Program-made: the position numbers and the translations under genes
Notes under the pieces: model-generated
The model's database searches: none
What the model saw: only the letters and a program-made list of their open reading frames with translations
Told to the model about the DNA's origin: nothing
Part shown: positions 10,627-28,862 of the stretch, in pieces
Position numbering within the stretch: the first letter of the stretch is position 1
Layout of the letters: each line of letters starts with the position of its first letter
Source of the DNA: Alteromonas sp. CI.11.F.A3
GTDB lineage: Bacteria > Pseudomonadota > Gammaproteobacteria > Enterobacterales > Alteromonadaceae
Reading direction: 5' to 3'
Assembly (NCBI RefSeq): GCF_032925565.1
Contig: NZ_CP136708.1
Coordinates: 3,534,001-3,598,000, forward strand
Length of the DNA: 64,000 nt

Positions 10627-10641
10627 TTATCGGTATAACTA

Positions 10642-11913
10642 CTAAATGTTAATACCGCGGTTTTTAGCCTTCTCTTTAATGTAAGGCTCCCAAGCCGCCG
10701 CATTACGACGTAGCGAGCGATCTTTCTTCGCTTCTTGGATGTGCTTATAAGCTTCTCTGAAGTCGCCTGCATAGAAGTTCGCTTCCATAAGTGTGAAGTG
10801 AACTTTACCAGGGTTTTCTACACCACGCTCTAATGCATTGTTTAATGCTTTAATCGCGCCTTTGTAATCTTCAGCAACTAGCAACAAGGTACCTTGCTTT
10901 CTGTAATGCTCAGGGTCTGAACTCTTCGCAGCAGCTTTAGCGTAAAGCGTAGCAGCCTTGTCATAGTTTTTAGCCTGGTGATATGCGTTAGCAATGCTAG
11001 CTAGCATATCTGCATCTTCTTCTAGCAAACCAGATTTAACGTGTTTTTCCAAAATTTGAGCAGCTTTAAAAGGCATGCCGTTAGTTTGGAATAACTGAGA
11101 TAACGTTTTAATCTCGTTTACTTTCTTAAGGTAGCCTTGGATGTAAGCCATCTCAAACGTAGATAAGCCCTTCTCGAAGTCTTCTACTGAAAGGTAGAAG
11201 AAGCCAAGCTGAGTCCACCAGCGAGGTTCCTCAGGGAAATTGCGAACTAATTCTTCTGCAACTGCCACTGTTTGAGGAAACATCTTACGCTCGTAGTATG
11301 ACGTTAGCTTTAACACATAAGGGTTTTTGTTCGGCTCATCATACAAAGCTATCGCTCTGTCAGCTGGCTCAATCATCTTATCTAATTGGCCTGCTTCATA
11401 ATAAGCTTGCGCTAAACGGGTATAAACGTCTGCATCTTCTTTACACGTAAAGTCCATCCACGCGTTATACCATTTAATCGCATCAGTATATTTGTTCTCT
11501 TGCATGTTCAAATCACCTAATAACTTAAGTGTTTGAGAATGCTCAAGGTCATTCAATACTTTAGGTTCTACAGACTGGTTTAAATAACCAAGTGCTTTAG
11601 AACCTTTACCTTCTTGTGCAGCTAATAAGTTACCAATAAAGCGATTTACATACGCAGCATCGAAGTCTTCAGAAGGGTCAATTTCATATAAAATGTTTAA
11701 CGCTTCATCAACTTGATCTTCGTTGTAAAATTCAAATGCTTTTTGAACTTTTTTACCTGTACGCTCGCCTACTAAGGTTGTTTTGGCTTTTTCGTAACCA
11801 GGGCACATAACAGGTGAAGACTGCGCTAGTGCAGCTGGTGCAGAAAACACTGCACCGGCACCAAGCACTAAAGCAAATGCAGACATTTTGAATTTATTTT
11901 TCATCATGATCAT
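10642..11913 (-). CDS. Periplasmic TPR protein of the TonB operon
   Basis: A 423-residue exported protein: signal peptide ending ALAQS, then tandem tetratricopeptide-like helices through most of its length (for example DALNILYEIDPSEDFDAAYVN and AATLYAKAAAKSSDPEHYRKQG). It is last in the DUF3450-TtpC-ExbB-ExbD-TonB operon, where such TPR proteins are conserved in Vibrio TonB3-like and Alteromonadales clusters. It probably acts as a periplasmic scaffold for the TonB complex; the exact role is not known to me. The first ATG overlaps the tonB stop (ATGA), but the ATG two codons further in has a better-spaced GGAG, so the start may be 11907. Confidence 0.8.
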   Translation of the reverse strand: MIMMKNKFKMSAFALVLGAGAVFSAPAALAQSSPVMCPGYEKAKTTLVGERTGKKVQKAFEFYNEDQVDEALNILYEIDPSEDFDAAYVNRFIGNLLAAQEGKGSKALGYLNQSVEPKVLNDLEHSQTLKLLGDLNMQENKYTDAIKWYNAWMDFTCKEDADVYTRLAQAYYEAGQLDKMIEPADRAIALYDEPNKNPYVLKLTSYYERKMFPQTVAVAEELVRNFPEEPRWWTQLGFFYLSVEDFEKGLSTFEMAYIQGYLKKVNEIKTLSQLFQTNGMPFKAAQILEKHVKSGLLEEDADMLASIANAYHQAKNYDKAATLYAKAAAKSSDPEHYRKQGTLLLVAEDYKGAIKALNNALERGVENPGKVHFTLMEANFYAGDFREAYKHIQEAKKDRSLRRNAAAWEPYIKEKAKNRGINI

Positions 11914-12521
11914 TGCTCCAGTTTAAAGTCTAGCTGTACGAACATGCCAGTCTGCTTAACAGCTTTGCCGTCAACAATCTTAGGCTTGTATTTCCACTTA
12001 CGTAATGCACGTCGTGCCTCACGGTCGAATACACGCTTAGGTTCAGCTTCAATTACTTCGATATCGTCTACACCACCAATTTCATTAATAGTGAAAGACA
12101 ATCTTACCCAACCTTCACGGCCATCACGGGCTGCGTCAGGTGGATATTTCGGATCGATACGAACGATTGGAGTAGCATCGCCATCGCGCTGCATAGCGCC
12201 GACACCACCAATGTTTACACCAACACCACCAGTATCAATAGCTGGGATTGCTAGGCTAAAGCCATCTGCATCCGGTTCAGCTGCTTCTGGCTCAACAAGC
12301 TCCATTTTAGGAGGCTGCTGAGGCGGAGGTGGAGGTGGAGGCGGAACACGTTGACGCGTTTGCGTCTGATCGTCTGGTTCCTGCATCACAATATCGATTA
12401 CCGGTGCTTCAGGTACTTCGTCCGCCGGTCTGGCTGAGTTTTCAATCAACTTAGCCATAAGTACGAACAGGGCAAATGCAACACCAGCACCTAACAATAT
12501 AGATACAATTATACGTAACAT
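11910..12521 (-). CDS. tonB: TonB-like energy transducer
   Basis: A 203-residue TonB protein of the short TonB2 type. It has an N-terminal membrane anchor (VSILLGAGVAFALFVLMAKLI), a periplasmic proline-rich stretch with eight consecutive prolines (about residues 61-68), and a C-terminal TonB fold with the YPPDAARDGREGWVRLSF and ALRKWKYKP motifs. It carries proton-motive energy from ExbB/ExbD to outer-membrane receptors. It follows exbD by one base. The four TBDRs in this window are possible clients, the two at 21-29 kb being nearest. Confidence 0.95.
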   Translation of the reverse strand: MLRIIVSILLGAGVAFALFVLMAKLIENSARPADEVPEAPVIDIVMQEPDDQTQTRQRVPPPPPPPPQQPPKMELVEPEAAEPDADGFSLAIPAIDTGGVGVNIGGVGAMQRDGDATPIVRIDPKYPPDAARDGREGWVRLSFTINEIGGVDDIEVIEAEPKRVFDREARRALRKWKYKPKIVDGKAVKQTGMFVQLDFKLEQ

Positions 12522-12522
12522 C

Positions 12523-12921
12523 TTAACCCCTTGCCGCTACCGAGACACGGTTAACGCCTGCAGCTTTAACCTGGTCCATTATTTCCACTACCAAACCATG
12601 CTTGGCCTTAACATCAGCCTGAATGATTACATAGTCAGTTGGCTGCTCGGTAAGCAGTCGTTCAATATTCGCTCTAACGCTGTCCGGCGCTACTTCACGT
12701 TTATCTAACCAAACGCTCCCATCTTCTGTAACTGCTATGAAGATGTTCGCGTTCTTGTGAAGAACCGCCTGGCTCGCGTCGGGCTTATTAACTTCAATCC
12801 CTGCTTCTTTAACGAAAACAGTGGTAACGATAAAGAAGATCAGCATGATAAACACGATATCCAACATGGGTGTCATGTCAATCTGTGCGTCTTCTTCCTC
12901 GATTCTGACTTTTCGAGCCAT
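12523..12921 (-). CDS. exbD: ExbD-type biopolymer transport protein
   Basis: A 132-residue single-span protein. The membrane segment begins at DMTPMLDIVFIMLIFFIV and carries the essential aspartate of the proton path (D21), the hallmark of ExbD/TolR. The C-terminal periplasmic domain is of normal length. It sits between exbB (11 bases upstream) and tonB (one base downstream) and would form the ExbB-ExbD motor. Confidence 0.95.
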   Translation of the reverse strand: MARKVRIEEEDAQIDMTPMLDIVFIMLIFFIVTTVFVKEAGIEVNKPDASQAVLHKNANIFIAVTEDGSVWLDKREVAPDSVRANIERLLTEQPTDYVIIQADVKAKHGLVVEIMDQVKAAGVNRVSVAARG

Positions 12922-12932
12922 AATATCTCTCT

Positions 12933-13457
12933 CTAATGATGTGGCAGGCTATCAACTAACCCTTCGCGTGCCAGCTTCACTTTCGCTTCGAGACGAGAAC
13001 TGATGAACAGTCCAGAAAGCGCGGCTACCATTCCCGCCATAGTCGGGATTGTTGCCATGGAGATACCAGCTGCCATTAATCGTGCATTGCTGGTGCCTTG
13101 TGTCGCCATCGTCTCGAAAACACCGATCATACCGGTTACTGTTCCCAGTAGCCCGATTAACGGACACATTGCAATAATGGTGCGAATAATCAGCATTCTA
13201 GCGTTCAGATCATCTGACGCCTGAGAAATCCACGCGTCACGGATTCTATGCGCATACCAAGATGTGGTATCTGCTCGGGCATCCCAATTTTTGATGATGT
13301 TTTTCTTCACCGTTGGGAAGACCGAGGTTAAATACCAATAACGCTCAATCATTAAAACCCACATGAGAAAGAGCGCGGCAGCAACGAAATAAAGCACGTC
13401 ACCGCCGGTAGCGATAAAATCCCTGACCGATTCAAATAATCCAATCAGGTAATTCAT
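12933..13457 (-). CDS. exbB: ExbB-type proton channel protein
   Basis: A 174-residue MotA/TolQ/ExbB family protein with three membrane spans. The long conserved pair is LLGTVTGMIGVFETMATQGT and the following AGISMATIPTMAGMVAALSGLFI, which line the proton channel. The length fits the ExbB2 type of TonB2 operons (E. coli ExbB has 244). It is one base from the ttpC-like gene and would be the motor partner of ExbD. Confidence 0.95.
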   Translation of the reverse strand: MNYLIGLFESVRDFIATGGDVLYFVAAALFLMWVLMIERYWYLTSVFPTVKKNIIKNWDARADTTSWYAHRIRDAWISQASDDLNARMLIIRTIIAMCPLIGLLGTVTGMIGVFETMATQGTSNARLMAAGISMATIPTMAGMVAALSGLFISSRLEAKVKLAREGLVDSLPHH

Positions 13458-13458
13458 T

Positions 13459-14817: not shown

Positions 14818-14823
14818 TAACAA

Positions 14824-15594: not shown

Positions 15595-15690
15595 AGTTCC
15601 CAACCAAATTTCTTATTTGAATCCTCGCCGATAAAGGAAAACAGTTCGGGCAAGGGGCGTATTAAACTTTTACAATTATGTTTTAGGAAT

Positions 15691-15719
15691 GTAGTACGGA
15701 CCTTAGCTTCCAGTACTAC
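15691..15719. repeat. Inverted repeat in the TonB operon leader
   Basis: Arms GTAGTAC and GTACTAC enclose a second short stem GGA/TCC. It lies about 100 bases upstream of the DUF3450 start. It could be an operator or an RNA hairpin in the leader. Confidence 0.45.
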
Positions 15720-15806
15720 GAACGTATTATACTCACACGGATTACAGCACTGAGTCAAGTAACACCCTGTTTACACCAAGTAGATTTTTCATCATCTGTT
15801 TAATAT

Positions 15807-15842: not shown

Positions 15843-16409
15843 CAAATAACTGGCAAATACGGGGTTATTTTTTTGTCTATCAGCAAAAATATACCCTGTT
15901 TTTACTTGGCTTTAGGCCACCCTATCAGGGTGTATCGAGGTTTTTAGCGAAAGGTGTTAAATAAGTAACACTCAGGATATGTTTTACATCAAAAAAGCAT
16001 TTAGTGTTAAATTCAGGTGATCACGCTTCGGTGGTCTTACCATTTGGTCCGAAAATTAAAGCAAACCGATCTAGCGGAAGTTCCATTTTGGTGCAAGATG
16101 TAGAGTATAAACCTATCTACGCCCATTATTGAGCCTTATCATTTCACACCCGCTTCAAAATCAACCAACCGATGCGCTTTAGATGTGCGTTATAACTCTT
16201 TAAATTCTGTAGCACTTTTAGGTATCCCATTTCTGAGAATTTTTAGTTATGTGGAAATCTTATTTAAGATCCCCAGAACTTAGAAACAACCTCGCAACGA
16301 GATTCTATTATTTATCTTTTTCATTCGCGCACGATTTATTGGCGTATGGGTTTTGATTTGGTAATAATACGAATGCCTTAAACAATAAAACAACTAATCA
16401 AAATTATTT

Positions 16410-16967
16410 ATGAATCAATCACCGAAATACAATTGTCTGATTAATGATAAGCCAATATGGGTTTTTGATAACCTTTGCACAGTAGATGAAACAAGTACTA
16501 TTTTTAAAGGGTTAGAGATAAGCGCTTTTAAACGAAATGAAGTTGCTCGCCCAGATACCGCTCAGTTCCGACATTGGGCCGTCTCTCTTTCTGAAGAGCA
16601 AATTAACGGCTTAGCCGTGTATCAACGTGCTATTCGCCAAATTAGTCATACTACTGGTAAACAGTATCGTGCTTATCGTGGATACGTTAACTATGCATCC
16701 TATGGTGATATGCTTTTTACTCACACTGATTGCTTGCCTGAAGCGGATGAACTCACTGTGTTGGTATTCCTATGCCCGGAGTGGGATATCGAGTGGGGTG
16801 GAGAAACTTTATTTTACAACGAAGATGATGATTGTGAATTCGCATGTACTCCAAAACCAGGACGTACTGTCATATTTCATGGGGCGATCAAACATGTAGG
16901 CAGACCACCCAATCGAATCTGCTATACATCTAGATACACATTAGCCTTCAAATTAGAACTAGCCTAA
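16410..16967 (+). CDS. 2OG-Fe(II) oxygenase (prolyl-hydroxylase-like fold)
   Basis: A 185-residue cytoplasmic protein (no signal peptide) with the iron triad of 2-oxoglutarate oxygenases: H105-x-D107 in MLFTHTDC and H162 in AIKHVGRPP, with R175 (or R169) as the likely 2-oxoglutarate ligand in TSRYTLAFK. The segment ECGGETLF-like WGGETLFYNEDDD is the usual strand before the distal histidine. The substrate is unknown. It converges with a TPR-oxygenase gene seven bases away and belongs to a run of four oxygenase-type genes between the TonB operon and the two large TBDRs, suggesting a shared modification pathway. Confidence 0.8.
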   Translation: MNQSPKYNCLINDKPIWVFDNLCTVDETSTIFKGLEISAFKRNEVARPDTAQFRHWAVSLSEEQINGLAVYQRAIRQISHTTGKQYRAYRGYVNYASYGDMLFTHTDCLPEADELTVLVFLCPEWDIEWGGETLFYNEDDDCEFACTPKPGRTVIFHGAIKHVGRPPNRICYTSRYTLAFKLELA

Positions 16968-16974
16968 TCTTTAG

Positions 16975-18777
16975 TTATGACTCAGGTACTATATCAAATG
17001 CGACCGTTAATCTTTGAGTATCTGAGTAAATTGGGTTAGTTCCGTGCCACATGTAAGATGGAAAAAACACAACATTTCCGGCTATAGGCTTAATGGCGAA
17101 ATCTTCTAACATTTCGACACCCTTAATATCTGGGCGCCCGAAGACCAGCCAACCGTTGCCATTTTCCCTTACTTCATCGGGCACATCAACGTAAAGTACA
17201 CCGCTCAACCATCCTTCAGAATGATAATGCGACTTGTGAAACCCCGCCTTTCTCAACCTAACTGACCAACTCCCAATAAACCGCAAGTTAGAGTGAATAC
17301 GAGAGAGAAAAGGGTGTTTTTTTTGCGTTGAAAGAGAGCACACAAACGACTCTGCTCTATTTTTAAGGGCAGACTTAAGGGTTTGAATTAAATGATGTTC
17401 ACTGTCTAGTAGGTTTTCAAATGTTTGAGTGCCATTCCTGAGCGACTGCCCTATGGGGTGTTGAGTACTGCTATGCAATGTATTTAAATATTCCGCCAAC
17501 TCACCGATAAAAGATGTGTTTTCTTCAGAACCTTCCAATAGTGATGTAACATTAATAAAATCCTGATACTGACATAATGTTTGATATTTTATCTCATCAC
17601 CATTTGCTTTATAGGCAGTGGATAACAGCGTCCAGTAGCCTTGATTCAAAGGAGCAATTCGACATACTAATTCGAGCACGCTGATAGCTTCTTTAGCTCG
17701 GTCGAGGCTCAACAACGAATAGCTTTTTTCGATAAGTAATGGCAGTGACTCAGCACTTTTGGTGTTAGGAAGGCTATTTATAACATTGAGCGCTTCTTGG
17801 AATTGACCAAGTCCCCTTAAAGCGTTAGATAAACTAGCTACTGCTGCAATTTGGATGGTCGGGTCTTGCTTCGCAACAAGCTTTTCTAACCAGAGTTTAG
17901 CTTTTTCAAAGTCATCGACCTTGAGCATTAATTCCGCATAAGCCATTACTAAACCGGGTTGTTCGGTAGATAATACTTTTTCTAAAAGGGCAAAAGGATT
18001 ATTAACATTTTGTATCCAAGCAAAATGTGCATACTCCTTGTGAAGCGTGACATTCAAAGGATATTTTGACAGCCCTTGTTCATATACTTCAAATGACTCT
18101 TTATGGGTGCCTTTAAGCGCTAATATAGCCGCAAGATTCTGGTATATTTCTGCACCAGCAACTCCAGTATCCAAGGCGCGTTGGTAACAAATGAGCGCTT
18201 CGTCTTGTTGCCCAATCCTACGTTTAATGTTACCTAAATTATTGAGCGCCTTTATGTTTGACGGGTCTATTTCTAATATTTGTACTAAATATTTTTCTGC
18301 TTCTACGTTCTGTCCTTCCTGACTCAAAATAGACGACAGCATTAACAACAAATCTAACTTTAACGGGTGAGCCTTTATTAATTCCCGTACATTTTTTTCG
18401 GCTTCGGCATAACGTTCTTCAGCAAAAAATGTCCTTGCCAAATTATATTTATAATCATAACTCTTTGAGTTTATTTTGTTGGCTTTGCTAAATAACATTA
18501 GCGCCTTTTTATTCTGACCCGCCTCAAGTAAGAGATTTCCGAAACTATTCATCAAATCACACGCACTAGGAAAGCGCTTTAGCCCTTTTTCGTAAGCTTT
18601 CGTTGCTTCATTGACGAAACCCAACTTACGCAAAGCACTTGCTTGTAACTGAGGCACAACTGCATCTACACGGAGCAGTGTTGGATTTAATTTAATCATA
18701 TCCAACACCACATTGTATTCGCATTTATTATACGCCTGAATAAGTTGAGGAATGATTATAGAGGGCGAGTTTTGCAT
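16975..18777 (-). CDS. TPR-repeat protein with C-terminal 2OG-Fe(II) oxygenase domain
   Basis: A 600-residue two-part protein. Residues about 5-400 are tetratricopeptide repeats (for example NNLGNIKRRIGQQDEALICY); the last 110 residues form a TIGR02466-type 2OG-Fe(II) oxygenase with a KSHYHSEGWLSGVLYVDVP segment (H517/H519), distal H578 in MWHGTNP and R589 in QRLTVAFD. TPR-linked oxygenases of this type usually act on proteins held by the repeats, but the target here is not known. It is the last gene of a minus-strand run and overlaps the upstream AspH-like gene by one base (TAATG). Confidence 0.85.
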   Translation of the reverse strand: MQNSPSIIIPQLIQAYNKCEYNVVLDMIKLNPTLLRVDAVVPQLQASALRKLGFVNEATKAYEKGLKRFPSACDLMNSFGNLLLEAGQNKKALMLFSKANKINSKSYDYKYNLARTFFAEERYAEAEKNVRELIKAHPLKLDLLLMLSSILSQEGQNVEAEKYLVQILEIDPSNIKALNNLGNIKRRIGQQDEALICYQRALDTGVAGAEIYQNLAAILALKGTHKESFEVYEQGLSKYPLNVTLHKEYAHFAWIQNVNNPFALLEKVLSTEQPGLVMAYAELMLKVDDFEKAKLWLEKLVAKQDPTIQIAAVASLSNALRGLGQFQEALNVINSLPNTKSAESLPLLIEKSYSLLSLDRAKEAISVLELVCRIAPLNQGYWTLLSTAYKANGDEIKYQTLCQYQDFINVTSLLEGSEENTSFIGELAEYLNTLHSSTQHPIGQSLRNGTQTFENLLDSEHHLIQTLKSALKNRAESFVCSLSTQKKHPFLSRIHSNLRFIGSWSVRLRKAGFHKSHYHSEGWLSGVLYVDVPDEVRENGNGWLVFGRPDIKGVEMLEDFAIKPIAGNVVFFPSYMWHGTNPIYSDTQRLTVAFDIVPES

Positions 18778-19790
18778 TACTTATAAAGTCTCCGATCTAG
18801 TGTCGCTAAGCTGCCATATTGGGAAGACCATTTACTATATATCTCCATTAGGGCTTTAATGTCAGTACGTTCTTCTATAGATAGATGCGGATTCCATATA
18901 TCTAGGATCAATACCGCTCTTTTTTCATCGGCCCCGTTTTCTGCGCTATGTTTATAGCTATCATCAAATAGAAGCGCCTCTTTGTCTGGTGTCCAATACT
19001 CTCGCTCACCAGCGGCTTCTATGTATGATAATTCATTAACTAACAGGGGAATATGAAGCGTCCACTTAATATTGGAGATACCAAAATGCGGTGGTATTTT
19101 AGTTTTTGCATCAAGTACAGAAATAACGATCTCTGGGGCATGATCTGGGCAATCGGCTAATAAGGGCGAGCTTAATAACGCTTTAATTTCTTCAGGTAAC
19201 GATTCCCCATCAGGAGTCAACTTGCCACCTTTCATTAAATGCAACGAACTCCAGTTTTTCGCTAGCTCAAGCCATTCCTGTGTATCCGGCACTTTATCTA
19301 TATCGTGTATGTATTGTTCATTCGCATTTGAAACACACGATAAAAAATAGCCTTTATGATGTGAAACTTGCTGAATAAAATCACGCAGGTATTCAACGGA
19401 ATCTACTGATGGAAATGGGCTAGATGGCAACTCGGGGACAAACAGAAAACTAGGTGACTGGTGCTGCTTGTCAAAAACTTTTTGAGATACTCCACACAGC
19501 GCGTTTACTGACTCTTGAATTCTTTTTGTCGCGCATATCGATTTTGTTTTGATAATAAGATCACGACGTGCCAAATTTGCGGCATTATGTATGTGAGTAG
19601 CTTGCGACTTCGTGATGGGAAGTTCTTCAGAGGGCGCTAAAAAATTTGGTGACTGCTGATACAGACGACGATATTCCGCCAGAGCAGTGTCATAAAGGCC
19701 GTCTTGAACTAGATTGGCAATGTGAGCGAGTATTGTGTCTATTTTGCTTTTTTTCTGATTCATAAAAGTGGGAAGCATTTTGCCTCCCAT
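18777..19790 (-). CDS. Aspartyl/asparaginyl beta-hydroxylase-like protein
   Basis: A 337-residue protein whose C-terminal 110 residues match the AspH (PF05118) domain: WTLHIPLL with the first iron histidine H246, then LLFDDSYKHSAEN with the second, H281, and RAVLILDIWNPHLS with the 2-oxoglutarate-binding arginine. As in the family, only two histidines and no acidic ligand are expected. AspH enzymes hydroxylate Asp or Asn side chains of proteins or peptides. No signal peptide is seen, so it acts in the cytoplasm. The N-terminal part (about 1-130) looks helical and TPR-like. It is translationally coupled to the TPR-oxygenase. Confidence 0.85.
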   Translation of the reverse strand: MGGKMLPTFMNQKKSKIDTILAHIANLVQDGLYDTALAEYRRLYQQSPNFLAPSEELPITKSQATHIHNAANLARRDLIIKTKSICATKRIQESVNALCGVSQKVFDKQHQSPSFLFVPELPSSPFPSVDSVEYLRDFIQQVSHHKGYFLSCVSNANEQYIHDIDKVPDTQEWLELAKNWSSLHLMKGGKLTPDGESLPEEIKALLSSPLLADCPDHAPEIVISVLDAKTKIPPHFGISNIKWTLHIPLLVNELSYIEAAGEREYWTPDKEALLFDDSYKHSAENGADEKRAVLILDIWNPHLSIEERTDIKALMEIYSKWSSQYGSLATLDRRLYK

Positions 19791-19812
19791 TTTAAACTAA
19801 ATTGGCCGTTAA

Positions 19813-20085
19813 TTACATATCACCGCCACTTGTTTCTGTGCCGCGCTGCATACGAGTCCAACCCTCTCGACCTGCCTCACGCATTTGTTCTCTTTCTTCT
19901 GCCGAATAGCAAACACGCTGCATGCGATTGGAGCCAATCTTCTTTTCCATCTTACACTTCATACCATCATCTGTAGCGTTACTATCAGACTTAGCATATT
20001 GAGAAGATTCGTTACTCGTTGAGCCACATGCTCCAAGCGTTAACGCTAGACCTACAACTAGACATACTTGATTTAGCTTTTTCAT
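19813..20085 (-). CDS. Small lipoprotein with conserved Cys pair
   Basis: A 90-residue protein with a lipoprotein signal (lipobox LTLGACG). The mature part is short, with a KCKMEKKIGSNRMQRVCYSAEEREQ motif: Cys, then about 11 residues and GSN, then Cys. I have seen this GS-containing Cys-pair pattern in small uncharacterised proteins of Alteromonadales and Xanthomonadales. The frame runs back to 20130, but the ATG at 20085 has AAGGGAATAGGG upstream and begins the signal peptide. It lies 16 bases after the prolyl-hydroxylase-like gene and 22 before the AspH-like gene, so it belongs to the oxygenase operon. Function unknown. Confidence 0.7.
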   Translation of the reverse strand: MKKLNQVCLVVGLALTLGACGSTSNESSQYAKSDSNATDDGMKCKMEKKIGSNRMQRVCYSAEEREQMREAGREGWTRMQRGTETSGGDM

Positions 20086-20101
20086 CCCTATTCCCTTTTT
20101 T

Positions 20102-21244
20102 TTAGTGATTGCCATATAAGAATTTACCATAATTTGTTTTATGTTCTCTAATCCATTTTGTAACTAACCATTTATTTTCTTTTCGGGTCGATTCTCCAGC
20201 ATGATAACTGTTGGTCAGAACATTTCCCTTGTCATCACTGTTATTGAAAACAAGCATGTTTCCTTTATTAGGAGATACCCGCATACCTAATTTGGGGAAC
20301 GTGGTATTGCCACCTTCATCAACAGTATTTAAATAAATAATTGCAGTTTTTGTTCTTTGTCCACCATCTTCGAAAGTCTTAGCATCTTGTAATCTATTCA
20401 ATGCATCATAATGGGGTTTGTACTCTTGGCCTGGCACATACCTAAGTAAATTCAACGCCTCACCTTCACAACAACGTGTCTTAGTTGCTTTGGCAACAAG
20501 CTTATCAATTTTTCGCGTTAGCCAGTCACAGTGCTCAGGCGAAATAATAGCAACGTAACTGGTCCTAACTTTGTCTATTCGGCCTTGACCTGTAATGGGG
20601 TCAACCACCATGGACGGTTGTAATAATGCACTGAACTTAATGACAAGGTAATTACATTCAAAATCCGACAACGTATTCTCAAACAAACTTATAGGAAGCT
20701 CTTCGTTTAGTGTAGTCGGCAATGGCAACGGCTCGAACAGTTTACTCTCCAAACCCTGAGCTACTTTATCGTTATTCGATTCACATACTTTGCCATTTAC
20801 AAATTCGTCGAGTTTCAGTTGGTTGAATATATTTGGTGCGATATTTTTTACTTTGTTCGCTATAAAAGAAAACTCACTACTGCTTTGCTCTAAATATGAC
20901 AAAATAACTAAATATGCTTCAATTACACCTTTCTCGCCCAGAGCCACTAAGCTTTTCGCTACACTATTCGATTCTGTAATTAGATCGCAAAAATAAGCTA
21001 TCAATAATTTGTGATATTGAACAATTGGATTTTCAACGCATGAGAGGCTTTCTAAATATTGAACTGATTCAATAGGCTTAGAATGAGACATATAGTATGC
21101 ATAATCTAACGCGGCATTTACATCCCCCGCTTCACCGGCTTGCTTGAGAAAACCCATAGCCATAGAGGTATCGTTAGCCGCATGTGCTTCATTTGCTTTC
21201 GTGATCAATTGTTGAACATTCATAACGTGTACACCATATAGCAA
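20102..21244 (-). CDS. Prolyl 4-hydroxylase-like 2OG-Fe(II) oxygenase with Sel1/TPR-like N-terminus
   Basis: A 380-residue protein. The C-terminal 200 residues match the P4Hc domain: H278-Y-D280 in YKPHYDALN, strand KTAIIYLNTVDEGGNTTFP, distal H348 in SYHAGES and K358 in KENKWLVTKWI, the lysine that binds 2-oxoglutarate in collagen-type prolyl hydroxylases. The N-terminal 100 residues look like Sel1 or TPR helices (AMGFLKQAGEAGDVNAALDYA). It is cytoplasmic. The substrate is unknown. The first ATG at 21244 lies only a few bases past a terminator for the upstream TBDR; an inner ATG at 21223 is an alternative start. Confidence 0.85.
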   Translation of the reverse strand: MLYGVHVMNVQQLITKANEAHAANDTSMAMGFLKQAGEAGDVNAALDYAYYMSHSKPIESVQYLESLSCVENPIVQYHKLLIAYFCDLITESNSVAKSLVALGEKGVIEAYLVILSYLEQSSSEFSFIANKVKNIAPNIFNQLKLDEFVNGKVCESNNDKVAQGLESKLFEPLPLPTTLNEELPISLFENTLSDFECNYLVIKFSALLQPSMVVDPITGQGRIDKVRTSYVAIISPEHCDWLTRKIDKLVAKATKTRCCEGEALNLLRYVPGQEYKPHYDALNRLQDAKTFEDGGQRTKTAIIYLNTVDEGGNTTFPKLGMRVSPNKGNMLVFNNSDDKGNVLTNSYHAGESTRKENKWLVTKWIREHKTNYGKFLYGNH

Positions 21245-21270
21245 AAAAGCCTCCGAAGAGGCTTTTTAAA
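21243..21270 (-). terminator. Terminator between the TBDR and the prolyl-hydroxylase-like gene
   Basis: On the minus strand AAAAAGCCTC-TTC-GGAGGCTTTTTT is a strong hairpin with a T-run. It ends 20 bases past the receptor stop and reaches the region of the next start codon. The GGAGG of its right arm is 12 bases before the first ATG of the next gene. Confidence 0.85.
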
Positions 21271-21290
21271 GATTCAAACTACACTTTATA

Positions 21291-24095
21291 TTAGAAGTTT
21301 ACATTCAAACGTGTGTAGAAGAATTGTCCAGGAATTTCATACATAGACGGGTCAAAGCTGTTAGCAAACGTCGAGTAAGAAACTTCAGGGTCTGTATCAA
21401 ATAAGTTGTTAACACCTAGCGTGATACGAAGGTTATCGTTAACCGCGTAACCTAATGACACATCGTGATAAGCCATATCGTCAAGCTCGTTGTAGCTAGT
21501 TCCACCAACTTCAAGACTTGGGTCGCTACACAACTGTTGGTCAAGTACATCACCGTCAATTGAACAAAGTTCAGTAGTATGACCGATGAAGCGAACTAAC
21601 CAGTTTGCTGTGAAATCTTCGTAGCTCCACGTTACCGCTAAGTTAGTACGAAGACGTGGAACAACATCACGGTCGCCCGCTAAGCCAGCATCGTTAAACT
21701 CGGCAGTTGTGTTTGTTACTGGGTCGATAACGATAGTTGTACGTTCATCAACATACGTACCATCCCAGTTCACTCGGAAATCACCGTAATCAGTTTCGAA
21801 ATTATACGCAACGTTATAATCGAAGCCTGAAGTAGTTTGTCCACCTAGGTTTACCGCACCGTTGAACAAGTCAACAACGTTACCGCCTGCACCACGAGTA
21901 ATTAGTGAACATAAGTTCACACCAGTTTCCGCACATGCAGCAAGAATCGTTTGCGCACCAACAGTTGAAACCGCGTTATCTACTTCAATATCAAATACGT
22001 CAAACGTGATTGATAGGCCATCAATTTGCTCTGGAGAGTATACAAGTCCGTAAGTAAAGCTTTCAGCTTCTTCAGCTTGAAGGTCTGCATTTCCACCAAC
22101 AGTGGTACGGATTTGTGTATTCGGTTGCTCATAGTTTGCAGGTATGCCAGCACATCCAGGTAAGTCTGGGTTGGCTGCTTCACCGCCGTTACATGGATCA
22201 GTAAGCGGAGCAAAGCTATCACTGTTACCGGAGAACAATTCATCTAGAGATGGCGCACGGAATGCTTCAGACCACGTACCACGAACAATTAAGTCGTCGT
22301 TAACACGCCACTTAAGGCCTACTTTAGAGTTTGTAGTGTCGCCGAAGTTGCTGTAGTCCGAGTAACGTGTAGCAAGTTCAAGGTCTAACTGTTCAACAAA
22401 TTCAAGATCTGAAAGAAGTGGAATAGCTAGCTCTAGGTATACTTCTTCAACACTGAATGAACCTTCAGTTGGTTGACGCGCATTACCCGAAGTAATACCT
22501 GCTGCAATAATTGCATCTGGCTGGTCGTAACCTTCTTGCCAGCGCTTTTCGTACCCAGCAGCAAATGCTAAATAGCCTGCTGGTAATTCAAGTATTTCGC
22601 CCGAGATGTTTGCAGAGTAACTTTCTAGCGATGTGCTCTGCTCATCTTGTGCAGTGAAAGTAATGTAATCAAGCATTTCTTGCGTGATTGTACCTTCGCC
22701 AAGAGCAGTAGAACCACCAAATAGGTTTAGCGGAGTACAGTCGCCAGTACAGTTTGCAGGATCACCGATTGCAAGAGCAACGCGGTCCATGTTTAAAAGA
22801 CCATCTGTTAACTGGTTTTGAGTGATATCAGCATAAGTGTAGTTTGCATCCCAGTAGAACTCTCTGTCTGCAAACTCAAGAACACCGTCAAATCCACCAT
22901 TAAACTGGAATTGGTCAACGTTCTGTTTGAAGCTACGGAATCCGGCTTCCATCATACGACGACCAAATAAGAACATTTCACGTGCGTTTGGATCTGCATC
23001 TAGGACTGATTGGTCTGTAGAAATATCAACACCATATGGGTTGTATGGGTTATCAGCAGAAAGCGTGAAGCCTGAATCACCAAATGCCGTTCCGATAAAT
23101 AATGGCGTAGGTGCTAAGGCCTGCTCTGATTTACGGTTACCGTAGAAACCAGTTACATTTACACTTAGGTTATCAGTTAATTCATAACGCGCCTGCGAGT
23201 AAATATTTGTTCTTTCTTGAGGCGTTGATAAGTAGTTGAATGGAGCAAAGTTGAAACGGCTATCAGGCTCAACCCATGGTTCTAAACCACCTGCATTATT
23301 ACCTTGTTCATTGTATCCAACATCAGCTTGGTCAAAAGTCCAAAAACGACCTTGAGGCGGCGCAGATGAACCACCGAAACCTTCTGGCGTACCAAAAGTT
23401 GGAACTGAAGAAATAGCACGGTCACCAGCTAGTGTTGCTTCTTCTTCTACATAACTAACGTTGAAGTAAACGTTACCTTTGTCATTCGCAGCACCAAAAC
23501 CAATATCCCACTGTTCTTTGTTACCGTCGCCTTCATCGTATTGGCCGATATAGCCAGAAGCATGAACGCCTTCGAAATCTTGACGAGTAATGATGTTTAC
23601 AACACCGGCAACCGCGTCAGAACCATATACCGCTGAAGCACCATCTTTAAGTACTTCAATACGCTCGATGATTGATGCTGGGATGTTGTTTAGATCAACT
23701 GAGCCCGTTAGGCCTGGAGACCAACGCTTACCATTTACAAGAACAAGAGTACGGTTTGAACCTATACCACGAATGTTAATAGTCGTTGTACCATTACCAC
23801 CGTTGTTGTTGTTGGTGTTGATTGCTGAACCAGCAGATGGGATTGCTTGAAGAACATCACCGATTGAAGTAATACCGAATTTTTCGATATCTACACGTGA
23901 CATAACCGTTACTGGGTTAGCACCTTCAATGTCTGTACGACGGATACGAGAACCAGTTACTTCGATTTTTTCAACAGAATCGGCTGCTTCTTCGGCTTCT
24001 TGTGCAGCAACTGCACCAGAAAAACTTATTGTTGAAACCGCGCCGAACGCGCAGGCCAACCTAACTGACTTAGCCAGCTTAGAATTTGTAAACAT
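21291..24095 (-). CDS. TonB-dependent receptor (Alteromonadales-type, 934 aa)
   Basis: A large TBDR. A signal peptide ends near AVAAQE; a TonB-box-like KIEVTGSRI and the plug hallmark NTNNNNGGNGTTTINIRGIG and RIEVLKDGASAVYGSDAVAGVVNI follow (residues about 45-175), then the barrel, ending with aromatic residues (YTRLNVNF). This TGSRIRR class is abundant in Alteromonadales and Caulobacterales and imports oligosaccharides, peptides or other large nutrients. Several cysteine pairs occur in the extracellular loops. A GGGAG eight bases before the ATG sets the start. It lies directly upstream of the oxygenase operon, separated by a terminator. Confidence 0.9.
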   Translation of the reverse strand: MFTNSKLAKSVRLACAFGAVSTISFSGAVAAQEAEEAADSVEKIEVTGSRIRRTDIEGANPVTVMSRVDIEKFGITSIGDVLQAIPSAGSAINTNNNNGGNGTTTINIRGIGSNRTLVLVNGKRWSPGLTGSVDLNNIPASIIERIEVLKDGASAVYGSDAVAGVVNIITRQDFEGVHASGYIGQYDEGDGNKEQWDIGFGAANDKGNVYFNVSYVEEEATLAGDRAISSVPTFGTPEGFGGSSAPPQGRFWTFDQADVGYNEQGNNAGGLEPWVEPDSRFNFAPFNYLSTPQERTNIYSQARYELTDNLSVNVTGFYGNRKSEQALAPTPLFIGTAFGDSGFTLSADNPYNPYGVDISTDQSVLDADPNAREMFLFGRRMMEAGFRSFKQNVDQFQFNGGFDGVLEFADREFYWDANYTYADITQNQLTDGLLNMDRVALAIGDPANCTGDCTPLNLFGGSTALGEGTITQEMLDYITFTAQDEQSTSLESYSANISGEILELPAGYLAFAAGYEKRWQEGYDQPDAIIAAGITSGNARQPTEGSFSVEEVYLELAIPLLSDLEFVEQLDLELATRYSDYSNFGDTTNSKVGLKWRVNDDLIVRGTWSEAFRAPSLDELFSGNSDSFAPLTDPCNGGEAANPDLPGCAGIPANYEQPNTQIRTTVGGNADLQAEEAESFTYGLVYSPEQIDGLSITFDVFDIEVDNAVSTVGAQTILAACAETGVNLCSLITRGAGGNVVDLFNGAVNLGGQTTSGFDYNVAYNFETDYGDFRVNWDGTYVDERTTIVIDPVTNTTAEFNDAGLAGDRDVVPRLRTNLAVTWSYEDFTANWLVRFIGHTTELCSIDGDVLDQQLCSDPSLEVGGTSYNELDDMAYHDVSLGYAVNDNLRITLGVNNLFDTDPEVSYSTFANSFDPSMYEIPGQFFYTRLNVNF

Positions 24096-24112
24096 GTGTT
24101 GTCTCCCTGGAC

Positions 24113-24131
24113 CACTAAAGCTCGTTTAGTG
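24113..24131 (-). repeat. Inverted repeat in the receptor 5' leader
   Basis: Arms CACTAAA and TTTAGTG with a 5-base loop lie directly before the GGGAG ribosome binding site of the TBDR starting at 24095. It could be a leader RNA hairpin or operator. The rest of the 310-base gap up to 24405 is AT-rich and shows no gene. Confidence 0.45.
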
Positions 24132-24405
24132 TGTATTTCTAAAATCGTTTATAACGAATTATTATTAGTAAGGTCAAAGCCTCACTAAGATAATAAACAC
24201 AACATGAGTAAACGGTCAACTGAGATCGGGAGGGGAATAATTAAAAGTTCAATTTTTTTCGTTTATTTTTCCTTTTTCTGTAAATGTTTACTTACAATTT
24301 ACATATCAAACACATTTTACTGTTTACTTTTCGGCCAATTCAGTTGAGGCGACTTATTATCACGATAAGAAACGGAAATTAGGTTAAAAGACTTTTTACC
24401 TACGT

Positions 24406-25839: not shown

Positions 25840-25849
25840 AAGCCTAAAT

Positions 25850-25878: not shown

Positions 25879-25889
25879 TTACTCAATTA

Positions 25890-28862
25890 TTAAAATGTAA
25901 CTTCAACACTAAAACGCACGTAACGAGGCGTTTGGAAAGAAGTTGGTAGGCCATAACTAGGGTTAGATTCACCGCGAGCAATATAGCCAAATGGAGCAAA
26001 TTGTTCGCCGTCTTCATATCCTGATAGTCGTTCATTAACTTCATTCAATTGTGTTGCTTCATCATTATTGAACACATTGAAGATATCAGCACGAAGAGCA
26101 ATATCAGCTTCTTCAAGTTCTATCAAATATTTAGCGCTTAAATCAAGGTTCCAAACATTTGGTGTTCTACCTTGAGAGCCACGAGGAGCAATCTCACCTT
26201 CATAAACGAATGATTCTGCATCATATAGAGACGCAAACACATCAGTTGGGTGGTAACCAAATGAGCTTAGTGGGCGACCTGATGTCCAACGGAAATTAGC
26301 GCCTAACGAGAAATTTTCTGTTAATTGATACGCACCATTTAATTTAAATGAGTGGCGACGATCATTAGGAAGATTACCAGAAGCTCCGTCCGTTAACCCT
26401 GGTTGATCAAAGTTAGTTGTTAATCCAGAATCGTCCTGATCATTGTCTGAACGAACGAAACCTTCATTGTTACCCCAACTATGGCTCCACGTATAGGTAA
26501 AGCTCATCATCCACACGTCATCCCATGCACGGTCGACAGTGAAATCAACAGAGGCATATTGGCGCTCCGCTTCAGGATAACCTAGCATATCTGCAGGAAT
26601 AGTATATGTTCCAAAAGGAACTGGACCGTCGCCATCTGGATCAGTAGTGATTGTTACATCGTTGCCCGGGTTGGTTAGCACGTAGTAGTGGAAGCCAGAG
26701 TCACACATAGTACAAGAGGAACCAAACTCTTGCTCAATAAACTCGTTAAAGCCTGCATCAATGGCAATGTCTTCTAGTGAGCTACCAAGGTCACGGTAAG
26801 TGGCTTTAACACCAAAGCTCCATGATTCATTAAGTACTTGCTCGTAACCAAGTATAAATTCATCTTGATACATTGGGTCTAAATCGGCATTAACCGTTTC
26901 TGTTGTGCTTTTAAGTGTGCCATCAGAGTATACCGTCATGCCACCAACCTCATCACCTAGTACTGGTGTGAAATCAGCATTAATTGACTCTACTTCATAG
27001 TACTGACGAGTATAAAGTTCATCACCCGCTAAACGAATGTTTGTATTTGTCGCAACTGGAAGGTAGTAACGACCATAGTTGGCAAAAATTTTGCTTTCGC
27101 CATCACCTTTAACGTCCCAACTAAGCCCTAGACGAGGAGCCCACTGGTCAGTAACGTCAACAAATTTATCACCTGCTTTGTTGTAGTTTTCAAAGCTCTC
27201 ATTACGCAAGCCGATACGTGCTGTAATATTATCAGTTACGGTCCAAGTATCTTCGATATAGTACGCGAAGCTTTTCGTTTCAAAATCGCCTTGGTTTATG
27301 TAGTACTCTTGACGAACTAAGCAATCTTCGTTTCCTGCTTCATCAAGATTAGCACCACAGTTTTCATAGCGATAGGCTACACCACCCGCTCTTTGAGTAT
27401 TTTCAGACGCTTCTAGATCTTCGTTATCCACACCAAATTTCAATACGTGGTCAGCATTGACATACCATTCAACATCAAAACGAATAGCGGTACGCTTATC
27501 TTCTTGAATAGAAGGTGTAGCTAAACCGTATGCGCCGTATTCGACGTTTGTAAATCTGTCGAAAATAACAGGAGCATCACCAAGCGGATTACTTCCATCA
27601 TTTAAATTACTGTAGCTTGTTTCGTTAATTGAGTATTGGGTGCTAATAGTAATATCATCGGTAATAATACCTGTGTACTGAATACCCCAAGTTTTACCAC
27701 CGCGCTCTAGTGTATAATTACCTAAAGAGTTTCCTATTTCATCCGAATCAGGGCTGTATAAGAACTTTTCAGATTCAAGCTCTTCGGTATTGTCCCATGC
27801 TGTAATTTCTAGGATGTGCTCTGGCGTAATGTACCAGTCGAGCTTTGCACTTAGTAATGTATCGTTACCTTCACGATCATAAATTACTGCAGTATCACCA
27901 TAATCTCTTTGACGAAGTTTTTGGTTAATTAAACCGAAAAAGAAAAGCTTATCTTCAACAAGTGCGCCGCTAGCCCACAAGTTTACATTTGTTTCACTGC
28001 GCTCATCTTCTTTGAATACTTCATAATAAGCTGTTCCTGCTTCGTCAGCATCAGCCTGGGTTCTATAAAAGACGTCGGGGCTATGTGCTCTTAACGCAGC
28101 TGGCTCATAGTAAGCGCTCGCGCCCCACTTAAATTCGTTGCTACCACTTTTCGTTCTTGCGTTAATAACACCGCCCGTAGAACGGCCATATTCAGCAGAG
28201 TAGCCACCTGTCTTCACTTCAAACGATTCATACATTTCAAATGGAAGTTCTGATCCACCAAGACCGTTTCTGAAGTTAGTTACGTTAATACCATTTACGT
28301 AATAAACGTTTTCACCTACAGATGAACCACCAAAGGATGCATAGTTCCCGAAGTCGGAATCACCAGATACCGTACCTGGCGCTAAAAGTGCGACAGAAGC
28401 GATATCACGTGGTACAGGAACTTTTGCAATGAAATCTTGGTCTACATAAAGCTGTGATTCGCTTGAAGTAACATCAATATTCGAAATTGACGTTCCGCTT
28501 ACTGAAATTCGCTCAATATCCCCAGACTCTAGAGCCACATCTAAGTTGGTTCTTCCTGATGGACGCACTGTAAATTGCTTTTCTTGAGCAACGGTAAACC
28601 CTGCTTTTTGAGCTGAAAGGCTGTATTGGCCTGGTGGTAACAATGGAAAAGTGAATCGGCCATCTGAATCTGTCACCACACTACGTGTTAGACCTGTTTC
28701 AAGGTTGATAATTGTGACTTCAACATCACCAAGTAATTGATTAGTACTTGCAGATACAGAAGTACCAACAATAGTACCTTTTGACTCTTGTGCGAATGAA
28801 GGTGCAGCAACACCTAAAGACGCTGCCACAGCTAATGCTGTGAGCGTTTTATTATTTATCAT
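25890..28862 (-). CDS. Oar-like TonB-dependent receptor with carboxypeptidase regulatory-like domain
   Basis: A 990-residue TBDR of the Oar type. After the signal peptide (ASLGVAAPSFAQE) comes a carboxypeptidase-D regulatory-like domain (TIVGTSVSASTNQLLGDVEV to PSGRTNLDVAL, residues about 28-115), then a plug with VYYVNGINVTNF and EVKTGGYSAEYGRSTGGVIN, then a barrel ending PRYVRFSVEVTF. Oar-like receptors import peptides, proteins or complex glycans. An in-frame GTG lies eight codons earlier, but the ATG at 28862 has GGGG six bases before it and begins a normal signal peptide. Followed by a terminator and the sulfotransferase gene. Confidence 0.92.
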   Translation of the reverse strand: MINNKTLTALAVAASLGVAAPSFAQESKGTIVGTSVSASTNQLLGDVEVTIINLETGLTRSVVTDSDGRFTFPLLPPGQYSLSAQKAGFTVAQEKQFTVRPSGRTNLDVALESGDIERISVSGTSISNIDVTSSESQLYVDQDFIAKVPVPRDIASVALLAPGTVSGDSDFGNYASFGGSSVGENVYYVNGINVTNFRNGLGGSELPFEMYESFEVKTGGYSAEYGRSTGGVINARTKSGSNEFKWGASAYYEPAALRAHSPDVFYRTQADADEAGTAYYEVFKEDERSETNVNLWASGALVEDKLFFFGLINQKLRQRDYGDTAVIYDREGNDTLLSAKLDWYITPEHILEITAWDNTEELESEKFLYSPDSDEIGNSLGNYTLERGGKTWGIQYTGIITDDITISTQYSINETSYSNLNDGSNPLGDAPVIFDRFTNVEYGAYGLATPSIQEDKRTAIRFDVEWYVNADHVLKFGVDNEDLEASENTQRAGGVAYRYENCGANLDEAGNEDCLVRQEYYINQGDFETKSFAYYIEDTWTVTDNITARIGLRNESFENYNKAGDKFVDVTDQWAPRLGLSWDVKGDGESKIFANYGRYYLPVATNTNIRLAGDELYTRQYYEVESINADFTPVLGDEVGGMTVYSDGTLKSTTETVNADLDPMYQDEFILGYEQVLNESWSFGVKATYRDLGSSLEDIAIDAGFNEFIEQEFGSSCTMCDSGFHYYVLTNPGNDVTITTDPDGDGPVPFGTYTIPADMLGYPEAERQYASVDFTVDRAWDDVWMMSFTYTWSHSWGNNEGFVRSDNDQDDSGLTTNFDQPGLTDGASGNLPNDRRHSFKLNGAYQLTENFSLGANFRWTSGRPLSSFGYHPTDVFASLYDAESFVYEGEIAPRGSQGRTPNVWNLDLSAKYLIELEEADIALRADIFNVFNNDEATQLNEVNERLSGYEDGEQFAPFGYIARGESNPSYGLPTSFQTPRYVRFSVEVTF

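Follow-up and report, generated by a model that had tools for sequence, protein, structure and literature searches.

Between a TtpC-type TonB operon and the tryptophan 2,3-dioxygenase gene tdo, Alteromonas sp. CI.11.F.A3 carries two TBDR genes, four oxygenase genes, a TPR-sulfotransferase gene and a gene for a small lipoprotein, which raises the question of whether these genes form one functional unit and what the oxygenases modify. We addressed this in the window, by which we mean the whole stretch of 64,000 nucleotides that was analysed (Table 1). Every gene named in the initial annotation was present and intact in its place, as judged by domain matches. The annotation had taken 28862 as the end of TBDR_A, which is an internal ATG. 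TonB, ExbB, ExbD and a long ExbB-like protein share one operon, as in TtpC-type systems. Genes for aromatic amino-acid catabolism lie nearby (tdo, maiA, phhA and tyrR).

Table 1. Features of the receptor slot and its surroundings, in window coordinates
Feature	Position	Strand	Remarks
TtpC-type TonB (ttp) operon	10642-15603	-	fixed flank of the slot
ttp operon TPR protein	10642-11913	-	
ttp operon TonB_C gene	11910-12521	-	
ttp operon ExbD	12523-12921	-	
ttp operon ExbB	12933-13457	-	
ttp operon long ExbB/TtpC-like gene	13459-14823	-	
ttp operon DUF3450 gene	14824-15603	-	
Cassette B exchange block	about 15.9-23.9 kb (15900..23900, ends approximate)	.	identity drop vs MMG017, G038, G033
Free 2OG oxygenase	16410-16967	+	PF13640; convergent to TPR-2OG, divergent from ttp operon
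TPR-2OG oxygenase	16975-18777	-	TPR repeats and PF13759; stop/start overlap with AspH
AspH-like 2OG oxygenase	18777-19790	-	PF05118
90-aa Cys lipoprotein	19813-20085	-	candidate substrate
P4H-like 2OG oxygenase	20102-21244	-	long N-terminal region; PF13640 1.8e-13; likely ATG start near 21223
TBDR_B	21291-24095	-	PF00593/PF07715; leading gene of the cassette B run
TyrR-like box TGTAA-N8-TTACA	24279-24296	.	1 mismatch; upstream of TBDR_B
Cassette A	about 24.3-28.9 kb		TBDR_A and TPR-sulfotransferase
TPR-sulfotransferase	24406-25839	-	PF13469 2.5e-22
TBDR_A	25890-28886	-	CarboxypepD_reg domain
tdo, tryptophan 2,3-dioxygenase	29190-30278	-	second fixed flank
tyrR regulator	34732-36288	-	NF008085 656.8 bits, cut-off 576
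Second TyrR-like box	36309-36326		at tyrR

Exchange of receptor cassettes in the slot

The locus had been read as a single functional module of 18 kb. Its genes are present and the oxygenases are linked to TBDR_B, but one module is ruled out because TBDR_A and the sulfotransferase exchange independently of the oxygenase block. Judged by sequence comparison, the slot between tdo and the TtpC operon holds two independently exchanged receptor cassettes, A and B, between fixed flanks. The TonB operon of Alteromonas sp. MMG017 is 98.8% identical to that of the window and its cassette A 98-100% identical, while its P4H, AspH and TPR-2OG enzymes are merely 37-40% identical; near-identical flanks around such divergent enzymes therefore indicate a block swap. 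Against MMG017, G038 and G033, identity is lost sharply near 15.9 kb and changes gradually between 23.4 and 23.9 kb. The genes for TBDR_B, P4H, lipoprotein, AspH and TPR-2OG are tightly packed in a single run, which was replaced, together with the opposing free-2OG gene, between near-identical strains. The TonB operon and tdo were retained, as was, in MMG017 and G038, the pair of TBDR_A and sulfotransferase. Such a swap is a natural experiment, in which the slots of near-identical strains differ only in cassette B.

The TtpC operon, proposed at first as a partner of the oxygenases, goes with the slot and is present whichever cassette occupies it. Its proteins are 98-100% identical in G033 and G038 despite a different cassette B, and likewise in G010; the Rheinheimera baltica cassette has no adjacent TtpC operon in the 20.9 kb read. 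A match to tdo was found in 44 of 59 genomes of the genus, including that of the window. Among 29 slots with the ttp operon, 28 hold a TBDR and 20 a TPR-2OG gene, and the other enzymes vary with the receptor. This survey set aside G098 (same species) and, G049 excepted, the 15 of 59 genus genomes lacking tdo, and its cut-off misses a second sulfotransferase in G028 and a distant lipoprotein copy in one further variant slot (L040), both seen otherwise.

The sulfotransferase, once grouped with the oxygenases, is instead inherited with TBDR_A. TBDR_A is at least 81% identical in 5 of 98 genomes, with the sulfotransferase adjacent in all five; the pair lies at another locus in G015, where 19.9 kb contained no match to the window's oxygenases. 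Longer, different TPR-sulfotransferases occur within the oxygenase run in 2 of 18 cassette loci (R. baltica and G028), and the R. baltica run ends in a fragment resembling the window's TPR-sulfotransferase. The PF13469 match and a retained PRSGTT loop indicate a sulfotransferase fold with a PAPS P-loop, and the protein aligns weakly to protein-tyrosine sulfotransferase 2 (TPST2, 2.7e-4). Nine tyrosines of TBDR_A are specific to the five close sulfotransferase-linked receptors, only three of them common to the distant linked receptor of G086.

Within cassette B, the linkage of AspH, P4H, lipoprotein and TBDR_B, as measured by sequence matches, is far beyond chance. Strong matches to the four (E<1e-50 for AspH and P4H, E<1e-15 for the lipoprotein, at least 75% identity for TBDR_B) occurred in one and the same set of 12 genomes out of 98, the window's own included. 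TBDR_B orthologues at this level were confined to these 12, the next best reaching 53% with up to nine candidates scored per genome. Gene order was retained in the cassettes read, that of R. baltica included. The comparison of gene neighbourhoods, chosen beforehand as the test that could refute the association, found the linkage of TBDR_B, P4H, lipoprotein, AspH and TPR-2OG conserved in the genomes having them and in R. baltica. Pairwise distances for these five correlated with each other at r 0.87-0.97 (partial r 0.83-0.96) and with the ttp operon at 0.44-0.65, in 9 of the 12 taxa (G028, G012 and G042 left out) and with the free 2OG gene not included. An order-wide search of 394 genomes gave 17 match places, 10 read at about 20 kb (including G000, G088 and G001) and seven at 3.6-3.7 kb.

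The window contains tyrR and a putative box in the promoter of TBDR_B, the two features by which we tentatively assigned the cassette to a TyrR regulon; the consensus used is one we take to be that of TyrR. The box has the same position in 9 of the 12 cassette genomes (at most one mismatch), and 13 further loci, some in the same genomes, have a similar box 184-203 bases ahead of their slot TBDR. Over the window as a whole, TyrR-like sites with up to two mismatches numbered 12, which is no excess over the 6.7 expected; 10 of 100 shuffles reached this number.

The oxygenases and the small lipoprotein

That all four oxygenases keep their iron-binding residues was borne out. The presumed iron and 2OG ligands, whose roles we assume by analogy, are invariant across relatives in the P4H-like (H278/D280/H348/K358, 13 sequences), TPR-2OG (H517/H519/H578/R589, 13 sequences), free 2OG (H105/D107/H162/R175, 11 sequences) and AspH-like enzymes (H235/H246/H281/R291, 11 sequences), even though overall identity is 30-40%. 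Domain matches together with these residues place the enzymes in PF13640, PF05118 and PF13759. The P4H-like enzyme matches solved prolyl 4-hydroxylases (2e-24), the AspH-like profile matches the solved AspH catalytic domain (1.5e-20), and the free 2OG enzyme matches an NCBIfam FlmC-type 2OG model at 1.8e-39, under that model's cutoff. For the block genes, dN/dS was 0.04-0.16. The AspH gene of G042 is in two reading frames and was excluded from alignment A2, and free-2OG counts omit G030 and G028 (gene decayed or not found). Searching genome contigs for AspH recovered 15 loci with an alignment as query and none with a single protein. An anti-phage library gave only generic 2OG and TPR matches.

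In each of the 18 loci read, the lipoprotein gene is flanked by P4H on one side and AspH on the other. C20 is invariant in 28 sequences, with the lipobox judged by eye. The predicted model (mean pLDDT 67.7, 80-86 in the core, residues 41-80) has a beta hairpin whose two strands carry C44 and C59 and whose tip carries an invariant GSN; a helix follows. An AlphaFold model of TBDR_B was discarded (mean pLDDT 39). BLAST and a pattern search both failed to find the lipoprotein in 31 tdo-anchored slots holding other cassette types and in four slots in other genera; used by itself, the pattern picks up 20 of 24 known loci, six of the 24 being second copies in the same genomes.

A. oceanisediminis has a close paralogue that neighbours a TonB_C protein and keeps C..GSN..C, with no match to the oxygenases of the window or the slots within 20 kb; distant relatives are orphans too. 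Because the orphan keeps them, these residues need not be modification sites, and we dropped GSN as a proven hydroxylation site. The mature part of the window's lipoprotein lacks proline, so the P4H-like enzyme would need another target residue. What we take to be the EGF-type AspH consensus is also absent from it.

Possible substrates of the cassette enzymes

The substrate and chemistry of the cassette enzymes are what we infer here; the receptor, the lipoprotein or a peptide remain the best target candidates. We tentatively favour, at somewhat under an even chance, a recombination-exchanged receptor-plus-maturation cassette whose enzymes hydroxylate, ahead of export, an envelope protein that the cassette itself encodes, with the lipoprotein as the foremost candidate. 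TyrR would couple cassette expression to aromatic amino-acid supply, and cytoplasmic 2OG enzymes would hydroxylate envelope proteins of the cassette ahead of Sec export. P4H, and probably AspH too, would act on the small lipoprotein, and TPR-2OG, the companion of most TBDR sets in the slot, would act on the receptor or the lipoprotein. Once lipidated and sent to the outer membrane, the modified lipoprotein would work with TBDR_B in ligand binding or import, perhaps of a peptide, the adjacent TtpC-type TonB system supplying the energy. We propose that block swapping of alleles reflects a need for receptor, lipoprotein and private enzymes to fit one another. This reading draws support from the shared genome set and retained order of the cassette genes, their replacement as a block, their correlated distances, the invariant catalytic residues and dN/dS values, the near-restriction of the lipoprotein to P4H/AspH loci, and the MNIO precedent described below. 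Counted against this are the orphan lipoprotein paralogue without oxygenases and its distant orphan relatives; the missing proline in the mature lipoprotein of the window; the cassettes of other genera, with AspH and TPR-2OG present and the lipoprotein not found; G012, where the lipoprotein has outlasted a decayed in-place P4H (a 33%-identical P4H lies elsewhere in that genome); and free-2OG and AspH relatives that are paired beside a ferredoxin gene with no adjoining TBDR.

It is possible, if rather unlikely, that the slot works combinatorially: each allele of the TonB-dependent receptor would come with a private set of enzymes for protein modification (hydroxylases, sulfotransferases, methyltransferases), one class would add a dedicated lipoprotein, and strains would exchange chemically decorated receptor complexes next to a TonB motor that stays in place, with TyrR as the regulator.

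Alternatively, TBDR_B may import a peptide or aromatic compound that cytosolic oxygenases modify or degrade, the lipoprotein being a mere receptor accessory. The methyltransferases and sulfotransferases of other cassettes, whose enzyme sets vary with the receptor, would suit such a role, as would the aromatic catabolism genes nearby, the TyrR-like box, which in several cassette types keeps a constant distance to the slot TBDR, and the presence in L123 of a prolyl oligopeptidase and oxygenases alongside a TBDR_B relative. In Shewanellaceae, the tdo-kyn genes and peptidase genes are reported to be under the control of TyrR (PMC5343134). We nevertheless consider this reading unlikely: neither an inner-membrane transporter nor a core enzyme of catabolism is among the cassette proteins scanned, the TPR domains suggest that the partner is a polypeptide, and the strict pairing of P4H and lipoprotein is left unexplained.

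Modification of the receptors only, with hydroxyl, methyl or sulfate groups added to TBDR precursors in the cytoplasm to alter surface loops for ligand choice or phage/bacteriocin evasion and the lipoprotein a bystander, appears improbable. The TBDR is the sole non-enzyme component common to the cassette types, and the sulfotransferase goes with the TBDR_A allele. However, TBDR_B (mean distance 0.18) is far more conserved than P4H, AspH and TPR-2OG (0.53-0.55), unlike a receptor under diversifying pressure. Very unlikely is a secreted, for example siderophore-like, small molecule made by the cluster and re-imported via TBDR_B; tailoring-type enzymes do adjoin a TBDR and a TonB system, but no scaffold-making enzyme or exporter was among the proteins scanned and the promoter carries a TyrR-like box. 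Although the slot collects many different gene sets, a chance gathering of unrelated genes in a recombination hot spot is scarcely credible given the identical presence and absence, kept order and co-replacement of the block and its preservation in Rheinheimera without the ttp operon.

Block exchange of receptor, lipoprotein and hydroxylases in this marine Alteromonas cassette suggests an undescribed modification of a surface protein or an imported nutrient. Should the enzymes modify the lipoprotein or receptor, receptor cassettes would encode 2OG oxygenases that hydroxylate uptake components of the outer membrane post-translationally, adding receptor diversity that gene sequences alone do not reveal, and bacterial AspH- and P4H-type enzymes of unknown role would gain a testable substrate. 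If the cargo is the target, the cassette would mark a new peptide-utilisation route in marine bacteria.

Comparison with known systems

SusC is a TonB-dependent receptor. Iron oxygenases are reported to modify peptides with lipoprotein signals prior to lipidation, in clusters that co-occur with SusC/SusD importers (PMC12636315). These MNIO-made lipoprotein RiPPs (DAG-RiPPs or RiPP-lipoprotein hybrids) are, by analogy, the closest precedent: there too a small protein with a lipoprotein signal and internal cysteines is encoded beside cytosolic iron-dependent oxygenases (PMC12636315). In the cassette, a small, lipobox-bearing candidate precursor adjoins putative modifying enzymes; its C..GSN..C residues are conserved, in the orphan paralogue as well. 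DAG-RiPPs use an MNIO (DUF692) (PMC12636315), a family absent from those listed for the window's proteins (the best 25 for two TPR proteins); the cassette has 2OG oxygenases of several families as candidate modifying enzymes. Bufferins are likewise exported Cys proteins modified by iron oxygenases, and about 16% of Buf2 have predicted lipoprotein signals; they differ in using an MNIO and in the 6 or 12 Cys of Buf2 (PMC12452194), where the cassette lipoprotein has one Cys pair plus the lipobox Cys and no adjacent MNIO. No title or abstract start describing the cassette gene set was found among open-licence papers, a search that leaves absence unproven.

AspH and prolyl 4-hydroxylases are the closest solved structures by sequence, and their ligand residues are retained in the cassette enzymes, which differ in being bacterial and in accompanying a lipoprotein without mature proline. 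TBDR clusters with tryptophan halogenase also exist, in which TBDRs likewise accompany sets of tailoring enzymes; the enzymes differ, the slots scanned contain no halogenase, and no paper on such clusters was found by title among the matches listed. The TonB operon resembles Vibrio TonB2/TtpC in joining TonB, ExbB and ExbD to an extra TtpC protein; unlike the Vibrio system, it flanks a variable receptor slot and includes a DUF3450 and a TPR protein.

Gene content and co-occurrence of the cassettes

The initial annotation had listed a TtpC-type TonB operon (ttp), four oxygenase-type genes, a small lipoprotein, a sulfotransferase and two TonB-dependent receptors (TBDRs) within 18 kb. This gene list proved correct, with Pfam matches for every named gene except the small Cys lipoprotein, for which the Pfam search returned no match. 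From coordinates and sequence, TBDR_B, the P4H-like gene, the lipoprotein, the AspH-like gene and the TPR-2OG gene form one tight run, in which the lipoprotein starts 16 bases past the P4H stop, 22 bases separate it from AspH, and AspH and TPR-2OG overlap. With the free 2OG oxygenase gene these make up cassette B. TBDR_A and the sulfotransferase form a second pair, cassette A, separated by a 310-base gap from the TBDR_B run. The leader ahead of the TBDR_B start codon, AGTGGTCCAGGGAGA, is identical in 13 of 13 aligned sequences, Rheinheimera included, a conservation that exceeds the need of a ribosome site.

Features of the window
Feature	Position	Strand	Basis
tmcA (tRNA-Met cytidine acetyltransferase)	8133-10574		
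TtpC-type TonB operon, six genes	10642-15603		Pfam
Free 2OG oxygenase	16410-16967	+	Pfam
TPR-2OG		-	Pfam
AspH-like		-	Pfam
P4H-like		-	Pfam
TBDR_B		-	Pfam
TPR-sulfotransferase		-	Pfam
TBDR_A		-	Pfam
Small Cys lipoprotein, ATG	20085		
TBDR_B leader	24096-24140		
TGTAA-N8-TTACA box	24279-24296		

The search covered 98 genomes, the window's own and 97 relatives. AspH, P4H (both E<1e-50), the lipoprotein (E<1e-15) and TBDR_B (at least 75% identity) gave strong matches in the identical 12 of 98 genomes, all from a single genus (Alteromonas). Looser cut-offs gave AspH in 18 and P4H in 48 genomes (E<=0.001) and the lipoprotein in 19 (E<=0.01), the extra matches being distant relatives elsewhere. The order TBDR_B, P4H, lipoprotein, AspH, TPR-2OG, ttp operon was kept in the 11 other cassette genomes with some exceptions: G012 has a decayed P4H in place and a second P4H, 33% identical, elsewhere in the genome; AspH is broken into two frames in G042; and the free 2OG gene is decayed or not found in G030 and G028, where a different 2OG gene takes its place.

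A scan of named genomes yielded six more cassette loci, from Alteromonas sp. MMG017, A. oceanisediminis, Aestuariibacter sp. GS-14, a Thalassotalea-labelled MAG (two contigs) and Rheinheimera baltica. The R. baltica cassette keeps TBDR_B (66%), P4H, lipoprotein, AspH, TPR-2OG and free 2OG. It also has a long TPR-sulfotransferase and a fragment of a sulfotransferase, and no ttp operon lies beside it in the 20.9 kb read. The lipoprotein was present in loci L090 and L091, and in 18 of 18 cassette loci read it sits between P4H (a remnant in G012) and AspH.

Exchange of cassettes between tdo and the ttp operon

Relative to the window, MMG017 is 98.8% identical across 8731-15914 and, in 500-base steps, 98-100% identical from 24.0 kb across the sulfotransferase, TBDR_A and tdo. 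From ~15.9 to 23.4 kb, identity is 60-78% or the sequences are unalignable, with protein identities of 37-40% for P4H, AspH and TPR-2OG, 57% for the lipoprotein, 71% for free 2OG and 78% for TBDR_B. Identity drops abruptly at the left edge of cassette B, which falls between the divergent ttp and free-2OG genes. On the right the change is gradual, with 82-93% identity from 23.4 to 23.9 kb, close to the 5' end of TBDR_B. The exchange pattern of MMG017 recurs in G038 and G033. In G010 and G033 the TBDR_A/sulfotransferase stretch (~24.3-28.9 kb) differs and has no sulfotransferase. The two receptor cassettes therefore swap independently.

Protein distances among the five block genes (9 of the 12 taxa) correlate with one another at 0.87-0.97 and with those of the ttp operon at 0.44-0.65; with the ttp signal removed, the partial r among block genes is 0.83-0.96. 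Because dN/dS of the block genes is 0.04-0.16 (two strain pairs, free 2OG in one pair) and the catalytic residues of the block oxygenases are invariant, the diverged cassette enzymes look like constrained, working genes.

TBDR_A was found at 81% identity or more in 5 of 98 genomes, and the sulfotransferase adjoins it in all five; in G015 the pair lies at a different locus without a match to the window's oxygenases. Of the genomes whose TBDR_A relative is more distant, G086 alone gives a strong match to the sulfotransferase (2.4e-50), and there too the two genes adjoin. TPR-sulfotransferases of weaker similarity are present in several slots between tdo and ttp. In R. baltica and G028 they lie inside the oxygenase run, so hydroxylases and sulfotransferases do come together in some cassettes. 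In its catalytic half, the window's sulfotransferase aligns weakly to protein-tyrosine sulfotransferase 2, with the PRSGTT loop matched.

The tdo gene is present in 44 of 59 genus genomes. We read 31 tdo-anchored loci without the window's cassette, plus L040, scoring slot contents by BLAST and representative domains by Pfam, and reached the ttp operon in 29 of the 31. One to several TBDRs lay between tdo and ttp in 28 of these 29, TPR-2OG in 20, a methyltransferase in 13, and AspH and sulfotransferase in 2; one slot was empty. Four loci from three other genera of the family contained TBDR, TPR-2OG, methyltransferase, AspH and 2OG genes and the ttp operon, with TPR-sulfotransferase and tdo additionally in three; the lipoprotein was not found in these four. 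The receptors had been described as lying next to their own TonB system. The adjacency holds, but since the ttp operon borders slots of varied content, the link belongs to the slot.

Several other arrangements were seen at these loci. In L066 (12267-14477) a sulfotransferase and an AspH-like enzyme each carry a C-terminal SEC-C motif (Pfam) beside a methyltransferase, and L062 has a similar slot cassette, its SEC-C termini on both enzymes assigned by similarity only. Relatives of free 2OG and AspH are paired beside a ferredoxin gene in L121 (9486-11539) and L035 (8341-10448), with no TBDR or lipoprotein beside either pair. The flanking tmcA gene is 70-87% identical in its matched parts in G010, G033 and G038, versus 98-100% for the ttp operon that separates it from the slot.

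A TyrR-like box upstream of TBDR_B

We take TGTAA-N8-TTACA to be the TyrR consensus. The box upstream of TBDR_B recurs at the same place, with one mismatch, in 9 of 12 cassette genomes, and is not found at that level in G012, G035 and G049. Scanning 43 further loci (814,658 bases, some genomes repeated) gave 17 such boxes. Thirteen of them lie 184-203 bases ahead of a slot TBDR, and six of the thirteen belong to slots of other cassette types. Three of the rest are within genes (two in R. baltica, which has no such box ahead of TBDR_B) and one is near a contig end. The window's other one-mismatch site precedes the tyrR gene itself. When up to two mismatches are allowed, the window as a whole shows no excess of sites (12 versus 6.7 expected, with 12 reached in 10 of 100 shuffles), so the case for this putative TyrR-like box rests on position. 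In Shewanellaceae, TyrR is reported to control tdo-kyn and peptidase genes (PMC5343134).

The lipoprotein and candidate substrates

The lipoprotein has 90 residues, with a lipobox Cys followed by a conserved C-x14-C segment containing GSN. A predicted model (pLDDT 80-86 for residues 41-80, mean 67.7) places one Cys on each strand of a hairpin, GSN at its tip and a helix after it. A pattern search that recovered 20 of 24 known loci found the lipoprotein in none of the 31 tdo-anchored slots of other types and in none of the 4 slots from other genera; the variant slot of L040 holds a distant copy. Two tandem family members lie beside genes that by eye resemble cytochrome oxidase assembly genes (L044, 6001-6820), so the family extends beyond the cassette. 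In A. oceanisediminis a paralogue adjoins a TonB_C protein; the 20 kb around it gave no match to the cassette oxygenases. The distant relatives are orphans as well. This paralogue and its neighbor (L126, 9805-10588) lie 5 kb past a TBDR and an adjoining protein with a GGGTAGW start (153-4732), the latter presumably akin to flavin-dependent tryptophan halogenases.

In inheritance and in exchange, the four conserved hydroxylase-type enzymes, which lack signal peptides as judged by eye, stay together with one receptor and one lipoprotein. Because these two are the only co-inherited polypeptides that cross the cytoplasm and then leave it, our leading but tentative reading, which we hold at somewhat less than an even chance, is that the lipoprotein, and possibly also the receptor, would be hydroxylated by the cassette enzymes before export. 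The orphan paralogue and orphan distant relatives count against the lipoprotein as a dedicated substrate. The chief alternative, that imported cargo is what the enzymes process, fits the aromatic amino-acid gene surroundings.

Directly beside the R. baltica hydroxylase cassette (L088, 16183-18279) are a small exported protein and then a putative enzyme and partner. This enzyme resembles the DUF692/MNIO type, which would make the locus a bufferin-type cluster. No title or abstract found among the open-licence literature matches described the cassette gene set. The closest shown precedent for cassette B is the MNIO-modified lipoprotein peptides of PMC12636315, whose clusters also co-occur with SusC/SusD importers. 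Cassette B has other enzyme families and showed no DUF692, so we do not claim membership in that system.
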